Assembly: GCF_003337275.1 (NCBI RefSeq)
Contig: NZ_QPJQ01000007.1
Location: 1-64,000, forward strand
Reading direction: 5' to 3'
Origin: Marinomonas foliarum
Lineage (GTDB): Bacteria; Pseudomonadota; Gammaproteobacteria; Pseudomonadales; Marinomonadaceae
Length of the DNA stretch: 64,000 nt
Below are positions 53,171 to 61,743 of this stretch, piece by piece. Position numbers and translations under genes: made by a program. Position 1 is the first letter of the stretch; each line of letters starts with the position of its first letter. Under the pieces are notes generated by a model. That model saw only the letters and a program-made list of their open reading frames with translations. It searched no databases and was not told the origin of the DNA.

Positions 53171-55954
53171 GTGCCAACAAATCAACCATTTACTACTTAT
53201 GAAGAAGTACAGCTAATAAACAAATTTGAAAAACTAAATAAAAAAGCTATATCTATTCTTACAGCCCGTTGCGCATTACGATGTCTTCCATTATTAGCAG
53301 TAAAAAAAGACCCAAATGACTATTTCCCATATTGGCCAGATGAATACCAAGCTCGATATCTATTGTCAATTTGGTGGGTATCACTAACTACTACCAACAA
53401 CTATAATAAAGCAGTAAATAAAGAAGACAGTGCATCAGTCAGTTTTGACAAAGAATCGTTATATAAAGCCGCAGATGCAGTCAATAAATTTTCCAGCGAA
53501 AACTTTGGCAATACAAACCTATCCTTCTCAGCTTATGCTGCTGCAGAAACTGATGCTGCAGCCTTCGCCGCCAACACCTTTCTAAATATAACAAGCTCTG
53601 CTACTTTTGATTACACCTTTACAAATGCCGCTAATGCGGCAGATGCTGCCTTAGACGCTAATATCCCTTTTCCAAACATTAAGGTGGAGTTCGAGTCAGA
53701 TTTAATATTATTAGAAAAAAGTGAAATTTATCCATTCCGAAATACACCGCTATGGCATAAACCAAATATAGATTATAAAAATTGGATGACAAAACATCTT
53801 AAGGAAGCATTGTACCGACTATCAATAAGGCAAAGCCATTCAAAAACTCAAACCCTCATTAATGATATTTGGCCTATCTATAAAGGGATTTTCGATGGCA
53901 AGCCAGACCAGAAAGCCATAGATAACGCACTCGATCAATTGGAAAATTTTTTTTCCAATAAGGGCATTGACGAAACAGAAAGCAATAAGCTCTTCGATGG
54001 TAAAGATGATGAGCCTGCTTATGGGAAAAGCGACGAGCTGTTTAATAAAAGAAAAAATGAACCGAATTCTGAAACTAAACTCGAAGAAACAGAATATGAC
54101 ATTGAAAGCATTGCGGGTAATCGCCACAACAGCCATCAATATGCAGTTGAAGATAAGCTCAATCGTCAACATCTAGTGAATACCTTGGCGATTTTACTAC
54201 AAGACAAAAATAATCATCACCATCAGACCATTGGTTTGTTAGGTCATTGGGGCGTTGGCAAAACCTCCGTTGTTGAGCTACTTAAAACTGCCCTGCAAAA
54301 GAAAGAAGATAAAACATCTATAGCTAAACGGCTAAAAGACATCCTACTACACTGTCAAACTATTGGTTTACTGAAATATTGTAGAGCTATCAAATCTTCC
54401 ATTGCCAAACGGCTTAAAACTACCTTCCAAACAAAAAAACATAGAGATAAGCCAAAATTTCTATTTGCCGAATTTAATGCCTGGGAATATGAACACACAG
54501 ATAACCTACAAGCAGGTATCGCTCAAGAAATGATCAAGGCGCTGTCTAGTCCAGAACCCAAACCTAATCGTTGGGAAAAGTCATTTTGGCCTTTCCGAAA
54601 AATCTTGCTGACATTACGGTTTGCATGGAGCTTACATAGCTGGAAGATATTAGCGCCTTTATTTCCTCTTGTTTTCGCTCTTGCACCTATTTGGTTTTTA
54701 TACTTTTTCAAAGAACAATTTGATCAAATAAATGATGCGGTTATTTACATTTTCTCTACCACTTGGTTCATCGGATTTTTATACCCAACGTGGAAAGAAA
54801 TTAAAAAGGTATTAGCTGGACCTCTAGCAAAAGAGTTTTTAACTTATTTGAAATTACCTGATTATGGCGAACACTTAGGCATGATTCCGGTGATGCGTGA
54901 GCACATTAAAAAACTCACCAAGGTGCGTTTGGGCAATGAAAAACGCTTGTTGTATGTAGTGGACGATTTGGACCGTTGCGGACACAAGGGCATTGTTAAA
55001 GTGCTCGAAGCAGTGCGAATGGTGCTGGATTTAGACAACGTCATTGTGGTAATCGCCGTAGACCAACGAATTGCCTTAGCGGCACTGGCGCTGAATTACA
55101 AAGAACTCGCCACGCAACATCACATTGAAGATCCTAGGCTGATCGCTCGCGATTACTTAGCGAAAATTATCCACCTTCCTATTGTGCTCACTGAGCCAGA
55201 TGAAGCATCTGTATCCAGTTACCTGGAACACCTTTGGAATGAAACCAGTTCACCGGAAAGTAAAGCGCTAGCCGAAAAGACAGACACCTTACCCCAACAG
55301 GATGAAAACTCTATTAAAGACAACACCAACAACACAGATGAAGCAAACCAGACAGATACTATTGAGCAAAGAGTAAAGACTGAGCAAGAAGGAAACGTCA
55401 TTAGACGGAATACCGAAAGAACCAACACAGAAACGTCGGAAACAGACTTTCCAGTAGAGCAAGAAACAGCAGAAACACCCAAAGATGTTAAACAAGTGGA
55501 ACAACTCGCCGAGCCACAAAAACTCGCCTTTACCTATTGGCTAAAGCATTTCGAGTTATCCAACCCTCGTCAGATAAAACGTTTGAATAACAGCTTTAAT
55601 CTACTTCGTAATTTTTACCCCGGAGAGGATAAAGAGCCAGTAGAAGTAACAAGCGAAGAAGCAGGAAGTGAACATGCCTTCCCCATGATGGTGACACTAT
55701 TTGCTTTTGAATATCTAAATAATCTTGATGACATGCAAAAGCGACAAAAATTAAAACAACTGATTAATAAAGAAAGTGATGATTTAACTGAGAAGGAAGA
55801 GGCATATCTAACAGACTACAAAATAACGCCATTGGTAATTGAACTGGCAAACCTTAGCTTAAAAAACACCACCATGATCCTAGGTATTGAGCCCTTTGTC
55901 CTTCCAGGGATTGATATGATCGATAAAACAGCAGAAAAAACAGAAAGTCGCTAA
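53171..55954 (+). CDS. KAP family P-loop NTPase
   Basis: 927 residues starting at GTG with AGGA upstream. An unusual N-terminal ~320 residues include an Ala/Asn-rich stretch (about 120-163) with no family I recognise. The KAP NTPase domain follows: Walker A GHWGVGKTS at 358-366, the KAP-typical FNAWEY at 435-440, two membrane helices inserted (about 493-513 and 523-541), and Walker B LLYVVDDLDRC at 593-603. A polar, acidic insert of ~100 residues (about 690-780) precedes the C-terminal helical part. KAP NTPases are membrane-linked and often occur in phage-defence or exclusion loci. A-rich codon use in the first third suggests transfer. Convergent with a toxin-antitoxin pair. Confidence 0.85.
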   Translation: MPTNQPFTTYEEVQLINKFEKLNKKAISILTARCALRCLPLLAVKKDPNDYFPYWPDEYQARYLLSIWWVSLTTTNNYNKAVNKEDSASVSFDKESLYKAADAVNKFSSENFGNTNLSFSAYAAAETDAAAFAANTFLNITSSATFDYTFTNAANAADAALDANIPFPNIKVEFESDLILLEKSEIYPFRNTPLWHKPNIDYKNWMTKHLKEALYRLSIRQSHSKTQTLINDIWPIYKGIFDGKPDQKAIDNALDQLENFFSNKGIDETESNKLFDGKDDEPAYGKSDELFNKRKNEPNSETKLEETEYDIESIAGNRHNSHQYAVEDKLNRQHLVNTLAILLQDKNNHHHQTIGLLGHWGVGKTSVVELLKTALQKKEDKTSIAKRLKDILLHCQTIGLLKYCRAIKSSIAKRLKTTFQTKKHRDKPKFLFAEFNAWEYEHTDNLQAGIAQEMIKALSSPEPKPNRWEKSFWPFRKILLTLRFAWSLHSWKILAPLFPLVFALAPIWFLYFFKEQFDQINDAVIYIFSTTWFIGFLYPTWKEIKKVLAGPLAKEFLTYLKLPDYGEHLGMIPVMREHIKKLTKVRLGNEKRLLYVVDDLDRCGHKGIVKVLEAVRMVLDLDNVIVVIAVDQRIALAALALNYKELATQHHIEDPRLIARDYLAKIIHLPIVLTEPDEASVSSYLEHLWNETSSPESKALAEKTDTLPQQDENSIKDNTNNTDEANQTDTIEQRVKTEQEGNVIRRNTERTNTETSETDFPVEQETAETPKDVKQVEQLAEPQKLAFTYWLKHFELSNPRQIKRLNNSFNLLRNFYPGEDKEPVEVTSEEAGSEHAFPMMVTLFAFEYLNNLDDMQKRQKLKQLINKESDDLTEKEEAYLTDYKITPLVIELANLSLKNTTMILGIEPFVLPGIDMIDKTAEKTESR

Positions 55955-55973
55955 TCACACACGACTACGATAT

Positions 55974-56285
55974 CTAAACCCGTTTAATAGCATTTTTATA
56001 AACCTCATTACGCTCCCGCTTTCCTACTGCCAACACAGTGACAATAACGACATCGTCTTGTACTTCGTAAACAAGGCGATAACCTGATTGACGTAATTTT
56101 ATCTTGTAGAGGTTGTCAGCGCCTGAAAGCTTTGAAGCAGGAACATGTGGATGGTCTAAACGCTCGATCAGCTTCTTTTTAAATTGCTGCTGTAGCGTGG
56201 CTCCAAGTTTTTGCCACTCTTTCAGAGCGCTCTTTTTGAATTCGAGTTTATAAGTCAGCGATGCTGACTGAGATACTTTCTTCAT
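55974..56285 (-). CDS. RelE/StbE family toxin
   Basis: 103 residues close in pattern to E. coli RelE (KSALKEWQKLGATLQQQFKKKLIERL, LYKIKLRQSGYRLVYEV, VLAVGKRERNEVYKNA). RelE-type toxins cut mRNA on the ribosome. AGGAACGCGCCA precedes the ATG, and the first 38 bases overlap the end of the antitoxin gene. Confidence 0.88.
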   Translation of the reverse strand: MKKVSQSASLTYKLEFKKSALKEWQKLGATLQQQFKKKLIERLDHPHVPASKLSGADNLYKIKLRQSGYRLVYEVQDDVVIVTVLAVGKRERNEVYKNAIKRV

Positions 56286-56548: not shown

Positions 56549-57067
56549 TCATTTATCAAGCAACACTTTTTTAACAGATCCTACAGATTGATTCTTCGTG
56601 GTCGCTAAGATGTCTTCTGGAAAAAGGGTTTGGTAAGAATTCATGTCGGTATGCTTACCATCAAGTCGTGGATGTAGTCGCCTTTTAAGGTCTTGACTGG
56701 TTTCATGGTCGTTCACCCGCTCTCCAAGTACATCTAATAATGCACCTTCTAAGCATTGTGGTGACCAAAGTATTATCTTGTAGCCATTCTGATGTGCTTT
56801 TTTCATTTCAGCATTAGTGGGAGGAAGATCCGAGTCTAGAACAAGGTAACGTTTGTCGTAATCAACAGCTTTAAAACTACGAATGGCATTTTGAATAATA
56901 TTTCCTGCTGAGCCGCCATCACCCGCTTCCACTTTGGCAGTTCGACCACAAGATCTCGGACAAAAGAATCGCTTCATGTGATCAATAAAGGCTTTATCAT
57001 CAGCTCCTTCGCCTACAACCAGAAGCGATGTGCTGACTGTTTTTCTAATCTGTTTACGTTTGGCCAT
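56549..57067 (-). CDS. TOPRIM/RloB-like protein paired with an AAA ATPase
   Basis: 172 residues. The start KTVSTSLLVVGEGADDKAFIDHMKRFF gives the TOPRIM-like Glu (E20), and DKRYLVLDSDLPP gives the D78-x-D80 pair; CLEGALLD adds a further Glu. I read it as an RloB-like/OLD-type TOPRIM nuclease-like protein. It lies 39 bases after the AAA ATPase gene on the same strand. ATPase plus RloB/TOPRIM pairs are known in abortive-infection-type systems (AbiL, PARIS, OLD/Gabija logic), so a defence effector role is inferred. It is short for a full OLD-type nuclease. Confidence 0.7.
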   Translation of the reverse strand: MAKRKQIRKTVSTSLLVVGEGADDKAFIDHMKRFFCPRSCGRTAKVEAGDGGSAGNIIQNAIRSFKAVDYDKRYLVLDSDLPPTNAEMKKAHQNGYKIILWSPQCLEGALLDVLGERVNDHETSQDLKRRLHPRLDGKHTDMNSYQTLFPEDILATTKNQSVGSVKKVLLDK

Positions 57068-57106
57068 TATGTCATTCCTTTGCTAGCCATCTTTTAATTG
57101 CAGAGT

Positions 57107-58291
57107 TTACAGTTCTGGTACTGCGCCAAGTGCTCCAGCCATATATTTGGCATAGAGATTATCATCAGCTCGTACGCCAACCATCTCATCTAAACGCCAT
57201 GCATCTGAGATTTGTTGCTGTTTTTCACAAAGATAAATCTGGTGTTTTTGCAAGCGGTTAAGGACTTCTGGTGTGTGACACGTGAAGATGAGTTGAGCTT
57301 GATGGGGATTAGTATGTTCAAAGCGAAACCATTCTATGATTTTAGGAATCAAGTATGGATGTAGGTCATTATCGATTTCATCAATCACAGCACAACCGCC
57401 CTTTTCAAGCACGGTCAACAAACGCTCTAACATAACAAAGGCGGATTGCGTACCACTCGACTCTTCCAAAAACGGTAAGGAAAACGCTTTTCCATCAGCA
57501 GATTGATGTATGCCAATAGGCATATAAAGTTGTTCAGATGAGCCATCCTTGTCCGTCGCTTTAAACGCTTTAATCTCCACGTTAGACAGCCCTAAATCAA
57601 ACATTCCCATTACTTCGATCATGCGATCTTTAAGCGTTGGTGACTTTTCATACGATTCTGCGGCATGAAACAAGGCTTCAGACCGAAAATGTCTACGCCC
57701 CATATAAGCCACATTGCTTGCAACACTTTTAAAAAAATCAATAAATGGGCGAGCTTCTAAAATATCGTAACTATAGGCCGCAGACAAAAGTGAGGCATTA
57801 TCACGCAGTGTTTCCGCCTTATTTGCAGGGAAAGGAAAGCCCTTTTCTTTAAAAGAAAACGTCTCACCCTTTTTTTCTCGCTTAAATAGGTAACTGAACT
57901 GACTGCTTGTTTTTACATACAAACCTTCGAATTGAATACGTTCATTATTAAGTACAAGTCGATACCGATAAGTCTGATTGTCTAATAAGAAATCGACTTC
58001 AACCATGGTGTCTTCCTCAAGGTGAAGACGGTGAGGTTGAAAAGGAACATGACTATCAGGATCACCTTTTAAAAAGGACGAACTGGCAAACCAGCTTAAA
58101 AAGACCAGTGGTTTTATAAATTGCGTCTTACCGGATCCATTTGCCCCAACTACAGCAAGCACTTTGTTTAAACGAATGTCAGGCAAGTTGACATCAAACC
58201 CAGATGGGATTGGCTTTTTCCCCACAGCAAAGTTAATCGATGCTTCTTGGGCAAAGCTATAAAAATTGCTAAACCGCATTGAAATAATCAT
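57107..58291 (-). CDS. AAA15-type ATPase (RloA/AbiLi-like), defence ATPase candidate
   Basis: 394 residues from the ATG at 58291; other in-frame starts exist at 58300 (TTG) and 58279. ABC/SMC-like ATPase: MRFSNFYSFAQEASINF at the start, Walker A GANGSGKTQ near residue 49, long insert, signature-like SSGTQSAFVMLERLL, Walker B AVIDEIDNDLHPYLIP and H-loop FTCHTPEVLNRL. This is the COG1106 type that drives RloAB, AbiL and PARIS-like systems. Probably senses infection and controls the TOPRIM-like partner. No restriction-modification genes are adjacent. Confidence 0.8.
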   Translation of the reverse strand: MIISMRFSNFYSFAQEASINFAVGKKPIPSGFDVNLPDIRLNKVLAVVGANGSGKTQFIKPLVFLSWFASSSFLKGDPDSHVPFQPHRLHLEEDTMVEVDFLLDNQTYRYRLVLNNERIQFEGLYVKTSSQFSYLFKREKKGETFSFKEKGFPFPANKAETLRDNASLLSAAYSYDILEARPFIDFFKSVASNVAYMGRRHFRSEALFHAAESYEKSPTLKDRMIEVMGMFDLGLSNVEIKAFKATDKDGSSEQLYMPIGIHQSADGKAFSLPFLEESSGTQSAFVMLERLLTVLEKGGCAVIDEIDNDLHPYLIPKIIEWFRFEHTNPHQAQLIFTCHTPEVLNRLQKHQIYLCEKQQQISDAWRLDEMVGVRADDNLYAKYMAGALGAVPEL

Positions 58292-58430
58292 AAAAAACAA
58301 TTTCCAACAAATTTACGTTGATTTTAAGACTATATAAAAAATACTGCGAAATAGATACCTATCATTAAGAGAATCATAAATACCTCAACCACACTTGACT
58401 GTCATTCTGATCAAAGGTAAAAATAGAGCT

Positions 58431-58505
58431 ATGAAAAACGTATCCCTTACTCAGCAACGAATTATTATCATCATTCCTAGGAGTGGTGGGTTCGTTGTTG
58501 AGTAA
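58431..58505 (+). CDS. Isoleucine-rich leader peptide of the ileS attenuator
   Basis: A 24-codon frame, MKNVSLTQQR then IIIII then PRSGGFVVE and a stop. Five consecutive Ile codons (ATT ATT ATC ATC ATT, 58461-58475) lie directly before a terminator and the isoleucyl-tRNA synthetase gene. This is the design of amino-acid attenuator leader peptides. AGAG three bases before the ATG is a weak ribosome-binding site. Confidence 0.87.
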   Translation: MKNVSLTQQRIIIIIPRSGGFVVE

Positions 58506-58542
58506 ATAAAGCAAACCCGCCCAAGAGGCGGGTTTCTTTTTT
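58449..58542 (+). promoter_or_regulatory. Isoleucine transcription attenuator upstream of ileS
   Basis: Three exclusive pairings are visible. Segment 1 (58449-58461, just before the Ile codons) pairs with segment 2 (58491-58503) over 13 bases with one G-U. Segment 2 also offers GGTGGGTT (58485-58492) to pair with AACCCGCC (58514-58521), the antiterminator. Segment 3 (58513-58521) pairs with segment 4 (58527-58535), nine GC-rich base pairs plus a T-run to 58542, the terminator. A ribosome stalled on the Ile codons would cover segment 1 and free segment 2, allowing read-through; one reaching the stop codon (58503-58505) would cover segment 2 and allow termination. Confidence 0.85.
58513..58542 (+). 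terminator. Attenuator terminator hairpin
   Basis: AAACCCGCC and GGCGGGTTT form a perfect 9-bp stem with loop CAAGA, followed by CTTTTTT. It lies 31 bases before the ileS start. Confidence 0.9.
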
Positions 58543-58572
58543 CTGCTTCTTGGGTTTTAACAGGAAGCCGAT

Positions 58573-61500
58573 ATGAGTACTCAAGACTCCCCTTCGCATT
58601 TAGCCCCTGAGGCTGACAATCCCTCTGCATCCGAGCGTTTTTCGTTCGTGGATGCTGAACATGCTGTGCTGACATTTTGGCAGGACAAACAGATTTTTAA
58701 GCGCTCTCTTGCCGCTTCGAAACATAAGCCTGACTATGTGTTTTACGATGGGCCACCGTTTGCAACGGGGTTGCCCCATCATGGTCATCTGGTGGCATCA
58801 ACCATCAAAGACATCATCCCGCGTTACTTTACGATGAAAGGATTCCATGTAGAGCGGCGTTTTGGTTGGGATTGTCATGGTTTGCCCATCGAGCATGAAA
58901 TCGATAAATCCCTTGGTATGTCCGCCAAAGAAGCGGTTGAATCGCTGGGTATCGCCCGTTACAACGCGGAATGCCGTGGCATTGTTCAGCGTTATGCCAG
59001 CGAGTGGGAAAAGACCATCACGCGCCTTGGCCGCTGGGTAGATTTTGACAACGATTATCGCACCATGGAGCCTTGGTACATGGAGTCCGTTTGGTGGGTC
59101 TTCAAACAATTGTGGGACAAAGGGCTCGTCTACCAAGGGGACAAAGTTATCGCCTATTCCACTGAGCTGGAAACCGTATTATCCAACTTTGAAGCCAGTT
59201 CTAACTACAAGGACGTTCAAGACCCTGCGGTCACAGTGTTGTTTAAACTCGTAGAGGAAGACGCCTATTTTGCCGCTTGGACAACCACACCTTGGACACT
59301 GCCTTCAAACCTTGCCCTGTGTGTTGGTCCAGACATTCCTTATGTCAAAGTCCATGATACCACTATCAACCAAACCCTTTGGCTCGCCGAGGCGCAACTA
59401 GAATCTGTGTGCAAGGGCCATGATGTAGAGGTGCTTGATAGAGTTGTGGGAGCCGACTTGAGTGGTAAACGCTATGAACCGCTTTTCCCCTATTTTAGCC
59501 ACTTGAATGCGTCCGGCGCTTTCCATGTATTTGCCGATAATTTTGTCTCGACTGGCAGTGGTACAGGCATTGTTCACATGGCTCCCGCCTTTGGTGAAGA
59601 CGATAACCGCGTCTGCAAGGCCAATGGTCTAAATGCCTCAGTTTGCCCTTTGGACAGCCGTGGCCGCTTCACCCATGAAGTGACTGACTTCGAGAACTTG
59701 TATGTGAAAGAGGCCGATAAAGCCATCATTCAAACATTAAAAGCGCGTGATCTTTTGTACCGTCAGGAAACCATCACCCATAGTTATCCTTTTTGCCCTC
59801 GCTCCGATACGCCCATCATCTACCGTTCTGTGCCCTCTTGGTACATCAAGGTAGAGCAAATGCGTGCCGAGCTACAAGCCAACAACGATCAGATCAATTG
59901 GGTACCAGAGCATATCCAACAAGGCCGAATGGGAAAATGGTTAGAAGGTGCAATCGATTGGTCGGTATCGCGTAACCGCTATTGGGGTACTCCGCTGCCA
60001 ATCTGGGTAAACGATACAACAGGAAAGCATTTGTGTCTTGGCTCTATAGAAGAGTTAAAAAACTACACTGGCGTAACCGTCGACGATTTGCATCGTGATC
60101 ATGTTGATGAACTGACTTTCTCCCTTCCAAAGGAACCAGGCACCTATCGACGCATTACGGAAGTATTCGACTGCTGGTTTGAGTCCGGTGCCATGCCTTA
60201 TGGACAAGTGCACTACCCCTTTGAAAATAAAGAGCAATTTGAACGTAACTTCCCAGCTGCGTTTATCGCCGAAGGGGTGGATCAAACACGGGGCTGGTTT
60301 TATACCTTACAAGTTCTCAGCCAATGTTTGTTCGGGCGACCAGCGTTTAAAAACGTTATCGTCAATGGCATAGTGATGGCAGAAGATGGCAAAAAGATGT
60401 CCAAACGCCTCAAAAACTACACGCCCCCTGATACTCTGATGGAGCACTATGGGGCGGATGCTTTGCGTCTATATTTGATCAACTCAGGCTTGGTAAAGGC
60501 GGAAGAGCAACGTTTTTCTGATGCTGGCGTACAAGACATGGTGCGTCAGGTGTTGTTGCCTTGGCTCAATGGTTTTCGCTTCTTCTCGACCTACGCCGAG
60601 ATCGATCAATGGCAAGACTCAGGATCGGACAAATCCTCTGATAACATCTTGGACCAGTGGATATTGTCTCGCCTGCAAACCTTAACAACCAAGGTCAATC
60701 AGGAGATGCAAGCCTACCATCTCTATAACGTGGTGCCAGCGCTCTTTGAGTTTATCGAAGATCTCACCAATGGCTATATCCGTTTGAATCGAGCCCGCTT
60801 TTGGCAAAAAGAAATGAATGAAGACAAACAGCAGGCTTATCACACTTTGTACTCTTGTTTGGATACATTCAGCAGGTTAATGGCGCCTTTTACACCGTTT
60901 CTTGCGGAGCATTTATACCAAGAGCTGTTGCCTTTTTCCGCTAACGAAAGGCCAGAGTCAGTGCATTTATGCGACTACCCCACGGCAAATGCGGCGTTAA
61001 AAGACGAAAAGTTAGAAGCCAGTGTCGCTCGTGTTCAGCACATCTTGGTAATGGGCCGCCAACTGCGTAACGATTTGAAAATTAAACTAAAAACACCTCT
61101 CAAATCTCTGACCGTATTGCATAAAGAGGCTAAGGTACTAAACGACATCGCTCGTTTGACGGATTACATTCAAACCGAGCTGAACATCAAAGACATACTC
61201 TTTAGCCAACAGGAAAATGACTACATCGACTTCTACGCTAAAGCGAATTTCCCAGTTTTAGGCAAACGCCTTGGCAAGCAAATGAAATACTATGCAGCAC
61301 GTATTGCGCAACTCAATGAGCAAGAGCTGGAGCATCTAGAAACTCACGGGCAAATCGAGGTGGATGGGCAAGTATTTAACCAAGAAGAGATTCACGTCTA
61401 TCGTCAAGCCAAAGCGGGTACGCACACCACGTCCAACCGTTTTGTGTCGATCAGCATCGACCCAGAACTGACAGAGGAATTGGTGGCGGAAGGCGCCATG

Positions 61501-61743
61501 CGAGAAATTGTTAGCCACATTCAGAAAATGCGTAAACAACAGGGCTACAAGGTATTGGATCGCATCGACATTAGTATCGAAGCGAGTGACGTACTGGCTC
61601 ATTGGTGCCAGCATCACCTCGATTACATCAAGACAGAAACCTTGGCTAATACGTTGAGTTTTACCAAGGTATCTGAATCGGGCTCACGCTTGAGCACCGA
61701 TTTAGGCGAGGTAAACGTCGTTGTTGAGCTAAGCAGTAAATAA
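58573..61743 (+). CDS. ileS: Isoleucyl-tRNA synthetase, type 2 (eukaryote-like)
   Basis: 1056 residues. Class I synthetase signatures are HHGH (HxGH) at 69-72 and KMSKR at 608-612; the editing domain between them contains WTTTPWTLPSNLALCV. The length, GLPHHGHLVASTIKDI, the LSNFEASSNYKDVQDPAV stretch and the long C-terminal region without a Cys zinc finger mark it as type 2 (IleS2), the kind found in eukaryotes and in some bacteria as a mupirocin-tolerant copy. The canonical HxGH is kept, not the swapped GxHH seen in some hyper-resistant IleS2. It charges tRNA-Ile. An Ile attenuator precedes it. Whether a housekeeping type 1 copy exists cannot be seen here. Confidence 0.92.
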   Translation: MSTQDSPSHLAPEADNPSASERFSFVDAEHAVLTFWQDKQIFKRSLAASKHKPDYVFYDGPPFATGLPHHGHLVASTIKDIIPRYFTMKGFHVERRFGWDCHGLPIEHEIDKSLGMSAKEAVESLGIARYNAECRGIVQRYASEWEKTITRLGRWVDFDNDYRTMEPWYMESVWWVFKQLWDKGLVYQGDKVIAYSTELETVLSNFEASSNYKDVQDPAVTVLFKLVEEDAYFAAWTTTPWTLPSNLALCVGPDIPYVKVHDTTINQTLWLAEAQLESVCKGHDVEVLDRVVGADLSGKRYEPLFPYFSHLNASGAFHVFADNFVSTGSGTGIVHMAPAFGEDDNRVCKANGLNASVCPLDSRGRFTHEVTDFENLYVKEADKAIIQTLKARDLLYRQETITHSYPFCPRSDTPIIYRSVPSWYIKVEQMRAELQANNDQINWVPEHIQQGRMGKWLEGAIDWSVSRNRYWGTPLPIWVNDTTGKHLCLGSIEELKNYTGVTVDDLHRDHVDELTFSLPKEPGTYRRITEVFDCWFESGAMPYGQVHYPFENKEQFERNFPAAFIAEGVDQTRGWFYTLQVLSQCLFGRPAFKNVIVNGIVMAEDGKKMSKRLKNYTPPDTLMEHYGADALRLYLINSGLVKAEEQRFSDAGVQDMVRQVLLPWLNGFRFFSTYAEIDQWQDSGSDKSSDNILDQWILSRLQTLTTKVNQEMQAYHLYNVVPALFEFIEDLTNGYIRLNRARFWQKEMNEDKQQAYHTLYSCLDTFSRLMAPFTPFLAEHLYQELLPFSANERPESVHLCDYPTANAALKDEKLEASVARVQHILVMGRQLRNDLKIKLKTPLKSLTVLHKEAKVLNDIARLTDYIQTELNIKDILFSQQENDYIDFYAKANFPVLGKRLGKQMKYYAARIAQLNEQELEHLETHGQIEVDGQVFNQEEIHVYRQAKAGTHTTSNRFVSISIDPELTEELVAEGAMREIVSHIQKMRKQQGYKVLDRIDISIEASDVLAHWCQHHLDYIKTETLANTLSFTKVSESGSRLSTDLGEVNVVVELSSK

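Follow-up and report, generated by a model that had tools for sequence, protein, structure and literature searches.

Introduction

Enterobacteria have classic attenuators of the trp/his/ilv type, and one before pheST, in which a leader peptide with regulatory codons is followed by rival helices and a terminator. A spare tryptophanyl-tRNA synthetase gene of an actinobacterium is reportedly also placed under a leader-peptide attenuator. Examples reported for amino acid biosynthesis include ilvG, ilvI and leuA (PMC2659441), and leaderless forms have been reported from Sinorhizobium, where trpL is a leaderless attenuator leader (PMC7298713), and from Streptomyces (PMC8079986), where leaderless leader peptides precede the synthetase genes leuS, trpS and thrS of Streptomyces lividans. 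The present analysis concerns a 64,000-nt stretch of Marinomonas foliarum (contig NZ_QPJQ01000007.1, positions 1 to 64,000, hereafter the window) and, within it, the RNA leader of ileS2, a gene for an isoleucyl-tRNA synthetase (IleRS). The leader at 58431-58542 is most probably a ribosome-mediated transcription attenuator, in which RNA polymerase would reach ileS2 only when a ribosome stalls at Ile codons. Judged from sequence, it is very likely a device of familiar type attached to a new target.

Leader anatomy and folding

The features of the leader and of the adjoining gene are collated in Table 1. The original prediction had described a 24-codon leader with five consecutive Ile codons, and the sequence bore this out at 58431-58505. 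The antiterminator (2:3, 8 bp, 58485-58492 with 58514-58521) and the terminator (3:4, 58513-58521 with 58527-58535, followed by C and six T) were found in sequence and folds at the coordinates it had given. Its stem 1:2 (58449-58461 with 58491-58503) exists as well, and only the extent had to be corrected, the minimum-energy fold being slightly longer (58447-58462 with 58490-58505). Strand 1 precedes the Ile codons within the leader, and its partner comes after GGTGGG. The resemblance to classic attenuators likewise held: a run of Ile codons lies in a short open reading frame (ORF) before an IleRS gene, the three mutually exclusive helices 1:2, 2:3 and 3:4 follow in the right order, and the terminator is succeeded by a U-run.

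Table 1. Positions of the leader elements, the predicted promoter and ileS2 in the window.
Feature	Position	Strand	Basis
Predicted sigma-70-type promoter: TTGACT (58395-58400), 18-nt spacer, AAAAAT (58419-58424)	58395..58424	+	consensus scan, 9/12
Leader peptide ORF MKNVSLTQQRIIIIIPRSGGFVVE, 24 codons + TAA	58431..58505	+	sequence; ORF with Ile run common to 7/7 Marinomonas genomes having ileS2
Strand 1, partner 58490-58505 (stem 1:2)	58447..58462	+	minimum-energy fold; covariation across lineages
Rfam RF00624 (P9) match, 53.7 bits (gathering score 43)	58458..58536	+	covariance model
Five Ile codons in a row (ATT ATT ATC ATC ATT)	58461..58475	+	sequence
Inner hairpin within 1:2 (58468-58476 with 58481-58489), Ile codons paired to strand 2	58468..58489	+	fold
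Strand 2 GGUGGGUU, antiterminator 5' arm	58485..58492	+	fold, core alignment
3' arm of stem 1:2	58490..58505	+	minimum-energy fold; covariation
Strand 3 AAACCCGCC, antiterminator 3' arm (58514-58521) and terminator 5' arm	58513..58521	+	fold, core alignment
Terminator strand 4 GGCGGGUUU (58527-58535) and U-run (58537-58542)	58527..58542	+	sequence, fold
AGGA, likely Shine-Dalgarno of ileS2	58562..58565	+	sequence; function inferred
ileS2, 1056-aa IleRS, IleRS2 type	58573..61743	+	hidden Markov model (HMM), motif, homology

Folding of the 142-nt region 58431-58572, which had been proposed as a check, gave -61.5 kcal/mol (z = -7.76), and none of 200 shuffles was as low; the helix energies were -15.1 kcal/mol for the terminator and -10.6 kcal/mol for the antiterminator. 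No other run of at least five Ile codons was present in the window in any frame on either strand. When the 500 nt upstream of ileS were shuffled 2000 times, a run of at least five Ile codons arose on the plus strand in 3 shuffles and the combination of Ile leader and terminator in none.

Proposed mechanism

Folds in which the footprint of the ribosome was masked agree with the following scheme. With enough charged tRNA-Ile, the ribosome would reach the stop codon and cover strand 2, and the terminator would halt transcription; in the corresponding fold, with the ribosome placed there, the terminator was the sole structure to form. If the leader were not translated, stem 1:2 would hide strand 2 (GGUGGG) and transcription would also end; the fold without a ribosome contained 1:2 together with the terminator. 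Stalling at the Ile codons would place the ribosome over strand 1 and free strand 2, which would pair with strand 3 before strand 4 emerges, and through this antiterminator ileS2 would be made. With the RNA ending after strand 3, the antiterminator was obtained with the A site at any of the codons Ile1 to Ile5 (-14.3 to -14.4 kcal/mol).

Conservation of the pairings

Lineage representatives were picked by hand, with near-identical Marinomonas copies and close relatives among metagenome-assembled genomes (MAGs) collapsed; L026 and L048, in which the strand-2 pattern was unmatched, were kept out of the stem test. When each of 12 ileS2 lineages was represented by a single sequence, the native pairing energy of stem 1:2 was -16.5 kcal/mol, as opposed to -10.9 kcal/mol for swapped partners. 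The native mean was reached in 0 of 20,000 permutations; the strands change yet stay complementary. After addition of the leaders of kinase, ilvA and SnoaL-type genes (28 lineages), the values were 0/20,000 by energy and 9/20,000 by helix length, and an alternative grouping into 17 clusters gave no permutation as good among 10,000. The alignment of related genomes thus upheld what had been expected of it, namely that Ile-codon runs are present and that the stems stay paired while the sequence changes.

Among 36 aligned cores, standard pairs occupied 287 of 288 terminator (3:4) cells and 259 of 288 antiterminator (2:3) cells, and strand 2 mimicked strand 4 in all 36. The third 2:3 pair is U-A in place of U-G in the 3 cores with a CCCACC/GGTGGG terminator, and C-G in the 4 cores with GGCGGG as strand 2. 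The position of the stop codon relative to strand 2 varies among the leaders; by our reasoning, a ribosome at each such stop codon would cover strand 2.

Identity of the downstream gene

The original prediction had named ileS as the target. The gene does encode an IleRS (TIGR00392, 961.4 bits, cut-off 621.4); the window protein is a second enzyme, of the IleRS2 type, beside IleRS1. The other IleRS of the host genome (contig C25, flanked by genes read as ribF and lspA) is 32% identical to the window protein. By Pfam, this host IleRS1 carries the C-terminal zinc finger zf-FPG_IleRS; in the window protein, DUF5915 occupies this end instead. The features reported for IleRS2, namely the HYPFE motif of the eukaryote-like class, the lack of a C-terminal Cys4 zinc element and a place as second IleRS beside IleRS1 (PMC4861432), were all found for the window protein, with HYPFE read in its translation. 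It scored 752 and 759.8 bits with the NCBIfam models for MupA and MupB, both below the cut-off of 1900, and is a relative rather than a member of these families. IleRS (TmlM) of pTML1, which has been reported to give thiomarinol resistance in Escherichia coli (PMC3069032), shares 62.1% identity with the window protein over 96% of the latter's length, and the closest named matches are from M. spartinae (93%) and M. rhodophyticola (85%). Because of the IleRS1 elsewhere in the genome, the DUF5915 end, HYPFE and the resemblance to TmlM, MupA and MupB, the window ileS is assigned as an auxiliary IleRS2 of the enzyme class of MupA, MupB and TmlM, and not as the housekeeping copy.

The signature motif of the window protein is HHGH, in the HXGH order and not in the swapped G/AXHH form that has been tied to hyper-resistant IleRS2 (PMC10485003). 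The window enzyme may be tolerant to IleRS inhibitors. Since ileS2 stands beside a housekeeping IleRS1, it would likely serve as a reserve for charging tRNA-Ile, called on when isoleucine is scarce or when inhibitors such as pseudomonic acids or thiomarinol act on IleRS1; its induction by such inhibitors would follow from the predicted switch.

Predicted promoter and leaderless start

Within the 60 nt upstream, the best sigma-70-like promoter ended 6-8 nt before the start codon in all 23 ileS2 leaders, as compared with 406 of 4600 shuffles (8.8%), and TTGAC stood at the matching distance in 22 of them; these leaders are not independent, because 8 of the 23 are Marinomonas copies, and at three loci (L046, L079 and L083) a longer in-frame leader start was picked by hand. 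No Shine-Dalgarno-like motif was found before the leader start codon in any of the 23. For leaders of all kinds, the gap between promoter and start codon was 5-8 nt in 41 of 54. Transcription would accordingly start at about the leader AUG, and the leader would be translated without a 5' untranslated region, that is, leaderless. A start downstream of the terminator, named beforehand as an observation that would speak against attenuation, was looked for, and the promoter scan gave no plus-strand site between the terminator and ileS.

Distribution and history

IleRS2 was found in 7 of 48 Marinomonas genomes, each with the leader before ileS2 (L002, L029-L034). The DNA similarity to the window begins at 58394-58414, at or inside the predicted promoter, in 6 of the 7 other Marinomonas loci, and the flank upstream of this point differs; L032 is the one Marinomonas locus that has its upstream flank in common with the window. 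Since the flank differs and the similarity starts at the promoter, promoter, leader and ileS2 appear to move as one block.

Beyond the genus, an Ile leader with a CCCGCC/GGCGGG terminator stood before ileS2 in 17 of 80 loci from named genomes: two Marinomonas, Veronia, two Vibrio, Natronospirillum and 11 MAGs labelled Pseudomonadales, K189A clade, Gammaproteobacteria or Proteobacteria. M. spartinae among the 17 is probably also one of the seven genomes counted within the genus. The loci were chosen with a criterion of at least three Ile codons, and from 67 pattern rows those in the wrong strand or place were removed (L017 minus, L018 minus, L042 minus, L131 plus). In a scan for the terminator only, in which the Ile criterion was not applied, a terminator was found at 15 of 50 ileS2 loci and an Ile leader at 14 of these 15, the exception being L067; L075, which lacks upstream DNA, was excluded.

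IleRS1 was present in 8 of 31 genomes checked (57-90% identity to the host IleRS1; L036 stands outside this count), and the other 23 gave only the 30-33% match of IleRS2 itself, with the proviso that MAGs may be incomplete. The leader occurred in 5 of the 8 genomes with IleRS1 and in 11 of the 23 without it; ileS2 is therefore under the attenuator where it is a spare gene and, apparently, also where it is the only ileS. No leader was found on a housekeeping IleRS1 gene: the host gene begins 32 nt after the preceding gene, and R1, a model of the core, had no match beside the IleRS1 genes at L003, L138 and L139. Nor did R1 match beside tmlM, upstream of which neither an Ile leader nor a P9-like terminator was found.

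Mapped on a tree built from 36 IleRS2 proteins, presence of the leader required 4 changes (shuffled mean 12.3; none of 500 shuffles needed as few). The leader is present throughout one clade (support 100/99), which unites the copies of Marinomonas, two Vibrio species and Veronia, and is absent from every member of another (100/100), made up of the copies from pTML1, two strains of Pseudoalteromonas luteoviolacea and Vibrio sp. S9_S30. The tree is compatible with one deep gain of the leader followed by losses. In the TmlM clade, the ileS2 loci of P. luteoviolacea and Vibrio sp. S9_S30 (L047, L050, L073, L155) are accompanied by IleRS1 in the three genomes searched. Separately, an ileS2 locus titled as a Klebsiella pneumoniae MAG (L078) groups tightly with one titled Deltaproteobacteria (L077); its Klebsiella title may stem from faulty binning.

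P9 as a family

Rfam files RF00624 as a gene-type small RNA (sRNA), 'Pseudomonas sRNA P9'. Of the 48 Marinomonas genomes, 19 had a match to it at E <= 0.001 and 8 had one over the gathering cut-off. The 21 places in the genus comprise 7 ileS2 leaders, 13 before a gene for a small P-loop kinase and one (L028) that looks like chance; the kinase genes were read from translations (L021 from DNA), with HMM support below curated cut-offs for L009 and L016. In the host's order, RF00624 was present in 47 of 390 genomes at E <= 0.001, in 16 of them over the cut-off, and in 0 of 14 controls. An Ile-rich leader accompanied 39 of 44 P9 loci (19/21 in the genus and 20/23, L115-L137, in the order).

The genes downstream of the order loci encode threonine dehydratase at 7 loci (L115-L118, L124, L128, L132; backed by HMM at all three scanned, L115, L124 and L132), the P-loop kinase at 10, a SnoaL-like protein at 3 (backed by Pfam for L119) and a citramalate synthase-like protein at one (L135; 613 bits against a CimA cut-off of 950, with an Ile-rich leader and a P9-type terminator before it); the matches at L136 and L137 seem to be chance hits. 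Entry steps to isoleucine are catalysed by both threonine dehydratase and citramalate synthase, the citramalate route bypassing threonine, and the presence of their genes therefore fits an isoleucine sensor. P9 is named among the sRNAs detected in Pseudomonas aeruginosa by Livny et al. (PMC2375449), which would be expected if it is a terminated leader. From the loci collected here, P9 is best read as a family of isoleucine attenuators.

In the host's class, R1 matched at 10 places in 9 of 369 genomes and added three SnoaL/DUF4440-type genes, one kinase and one GNAT acetyltransferase; the places L161, L163 and L164 were set aside as chance-like. At L162, a Thr/Ile-rich leader and a terminator precede an aspartokinase-like gene with a weak R1 match (34.5 bits), perhaps a thr-type attenuator. 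The small P-loop kinase-like protein (about 175 aa, MKKVAVFGKPGSGKST...) is weakly similar to 'DNA topology modulation protein' models, and its genes lie behind P9-type attenuators at L009, L015-L026, L121, L123, L125-L127, L129-L131, L133, L134 and L158. The same type of attenuator stands before SnoaL/DUF4440-type genes at L119, L120, L122, L156, L159 and L160 and before the GNAT acetyltransferase gene at L165.

Alternative explanations

Several observations weigh against attenuation of ileS2 or against its generality. Support for stem 1:2 in the 12 lineages is weaker by longest contiguous helix (481 of 20,000 permutations as good), and contiguous 1:2 helices span only 5-6 bp in several lineages. 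The P9 gathering score was reached by 4 of 16 other ileS2 leader loci, and 12 of the 16 fall below it. The leader is missing from 63 of the 80 ileS2 loci, the TmlM clade included, well-supported branches force at least three changes of the trait, and the Ile content within the 17 leader-bearing loci is partly circular because at least three Ile codons had been used for their selection. The promoter match in the window is, taken alone, no better than chance (2 such sites against a shuffle mean of 1.0). Finally, the full-length leader fold favours the terminator even under stall; antitermination must therefore be kinetic, as is usual for ribosome-mediated attenuators.

A terminator that acts as a fixed, unregulated brake, with an incidental Ile run and constantly low ileS2 expression, would account for the strong terminator; it leaves unexplained that strand 2 mimics strand 4 in every core, that compensating changes keep stem 1:2, and that an Ile leader precedes 14 of the 15 terminators found without the Ile criterion, and it is regarded as very improbable. 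The filing of RF00624 as a gene-type sRNA and the detection of P9 in the P. aeruginosa sRNA set (PMC2375449) would suit a mainly trans-acting sRNA whose place before ileS2 is incidental. Against this stand the 39 of 44 P9 loci at which an Ile-rich leader ORF stops ahead of the terminator, and also the genes behind P9, among them ilvA, citramalate synthase and ileS2. The cis-acting attenuator is preferred because it explains both the Ile leaders and the downstream genes, and a mainly trans-acting RNA is considered quite improbable; P9 may act in trans besides, as has been reported for the attenuator leader rnTrpL of Sinorhizobium (PMC7298713). For direct sensing of tRNA-Ile by a T-box, or for another riboswitch, it can be said that actinobacterial ileS genes have been predicted to carry T-boxes upstream (PMC1262725). 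When the whole window was scanned with Rfam, only RF00624 came up at gathering score, and the ORF fills most of the leader; the probability of this kind of control is accordingly taken as negligible.

With confidence slightly above even, we propose a joint reading: P9 would be a gammaproteobacterial leaderless sensor of isoleucyl-tRNA shortage that has been reused for ilvA and for genes of citramalate synthase, kinase, SnoaL-like protein, acetyltransferase and IleRS2. Together with ileS2, it would form a mobile unit of promoter, sensor and drug-tolerant-type IleRS, which senses an IleRS inhibitor by its damage and induces the replacement.

Neighbouring genes

Directly upstream of ileS2, on the minus strand (56549-58300), a gene for an AAA_21 ATPase adjoins an RloB-like gene (Pfam score under the cut-off); the two look like a defence-type pair. 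A gene for a KAP-family P-loop NTPase lies at 53171-55954, and a short ORF at 55974-56285 resembles a RelE-type toxin by its translation.

Implications and comparison with known systems

If the proposed reading is true, a function is provided for an Rfam family filed as sRNA, and leader-peptide attenuation is extended to an isoleucyl-tRNA synthetase in Proteobacteria. It would also point to a way in which a synthetase of the mupirocin/thiomarinol-tolerant class, held as a spare, could be kept silent until needed, and it would tie small P-loop kinases and SnoaL-like proteins to isoleucine shortage, making their function testable. Neither a survey of premature terminators (PMC2965389) nor one on Shewanella cis-regulatory RNAs (PMC2659441) mentions ileS in its text. 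In the part of the open-licence PMC literature that was accessible, no description of an ileS leader-peptide attenuator in Proteobacteria was found, and none that identifies P9 as an attenuator for isoleucine or ilvA; an earlier description is possible.

Like the classic attenuators, the window element has regulatory codons in its leader peptide, a set of three competing helices and a terminator with U-run. It differs from them in its target ileS2, in the placement of the Ile codons inside the hairpin that hides strand 2, and in its predicted leaderless start. With the leaders of Streptomyces lividans it would share a synthetase leader peptide without a 5' untranslated region (predicted in the window); those leaders belong to other amino acids and another phylum, and some of them lack a typical terminator. 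Similar in purpose is the attenuator of the tryptophanyl-tRNA synthetase gene, where, as proposed for ileS2, a spare synthetase gene reportedly responds when the charged tRNA that its product supplies runs short; the amino acid there is Trp and not Ile, and the organism is an actinobacterium and not a gammaproteobacterium. TmlM of pTML1 is an IleRS2 like the window enzyme, whereas no Ile leader was found before tmlM, and resistance is a putative trait of the window enzyme. At the P9 loci before ilvA, the Ile leader, strand 2 and the terminator recur as in the window element. P9 itself is filed as an sRNA gene and stands before ileS2 in Marinomonas and Vibrionaceae, and the more distant ileS2 leaders lie under its gathering score.
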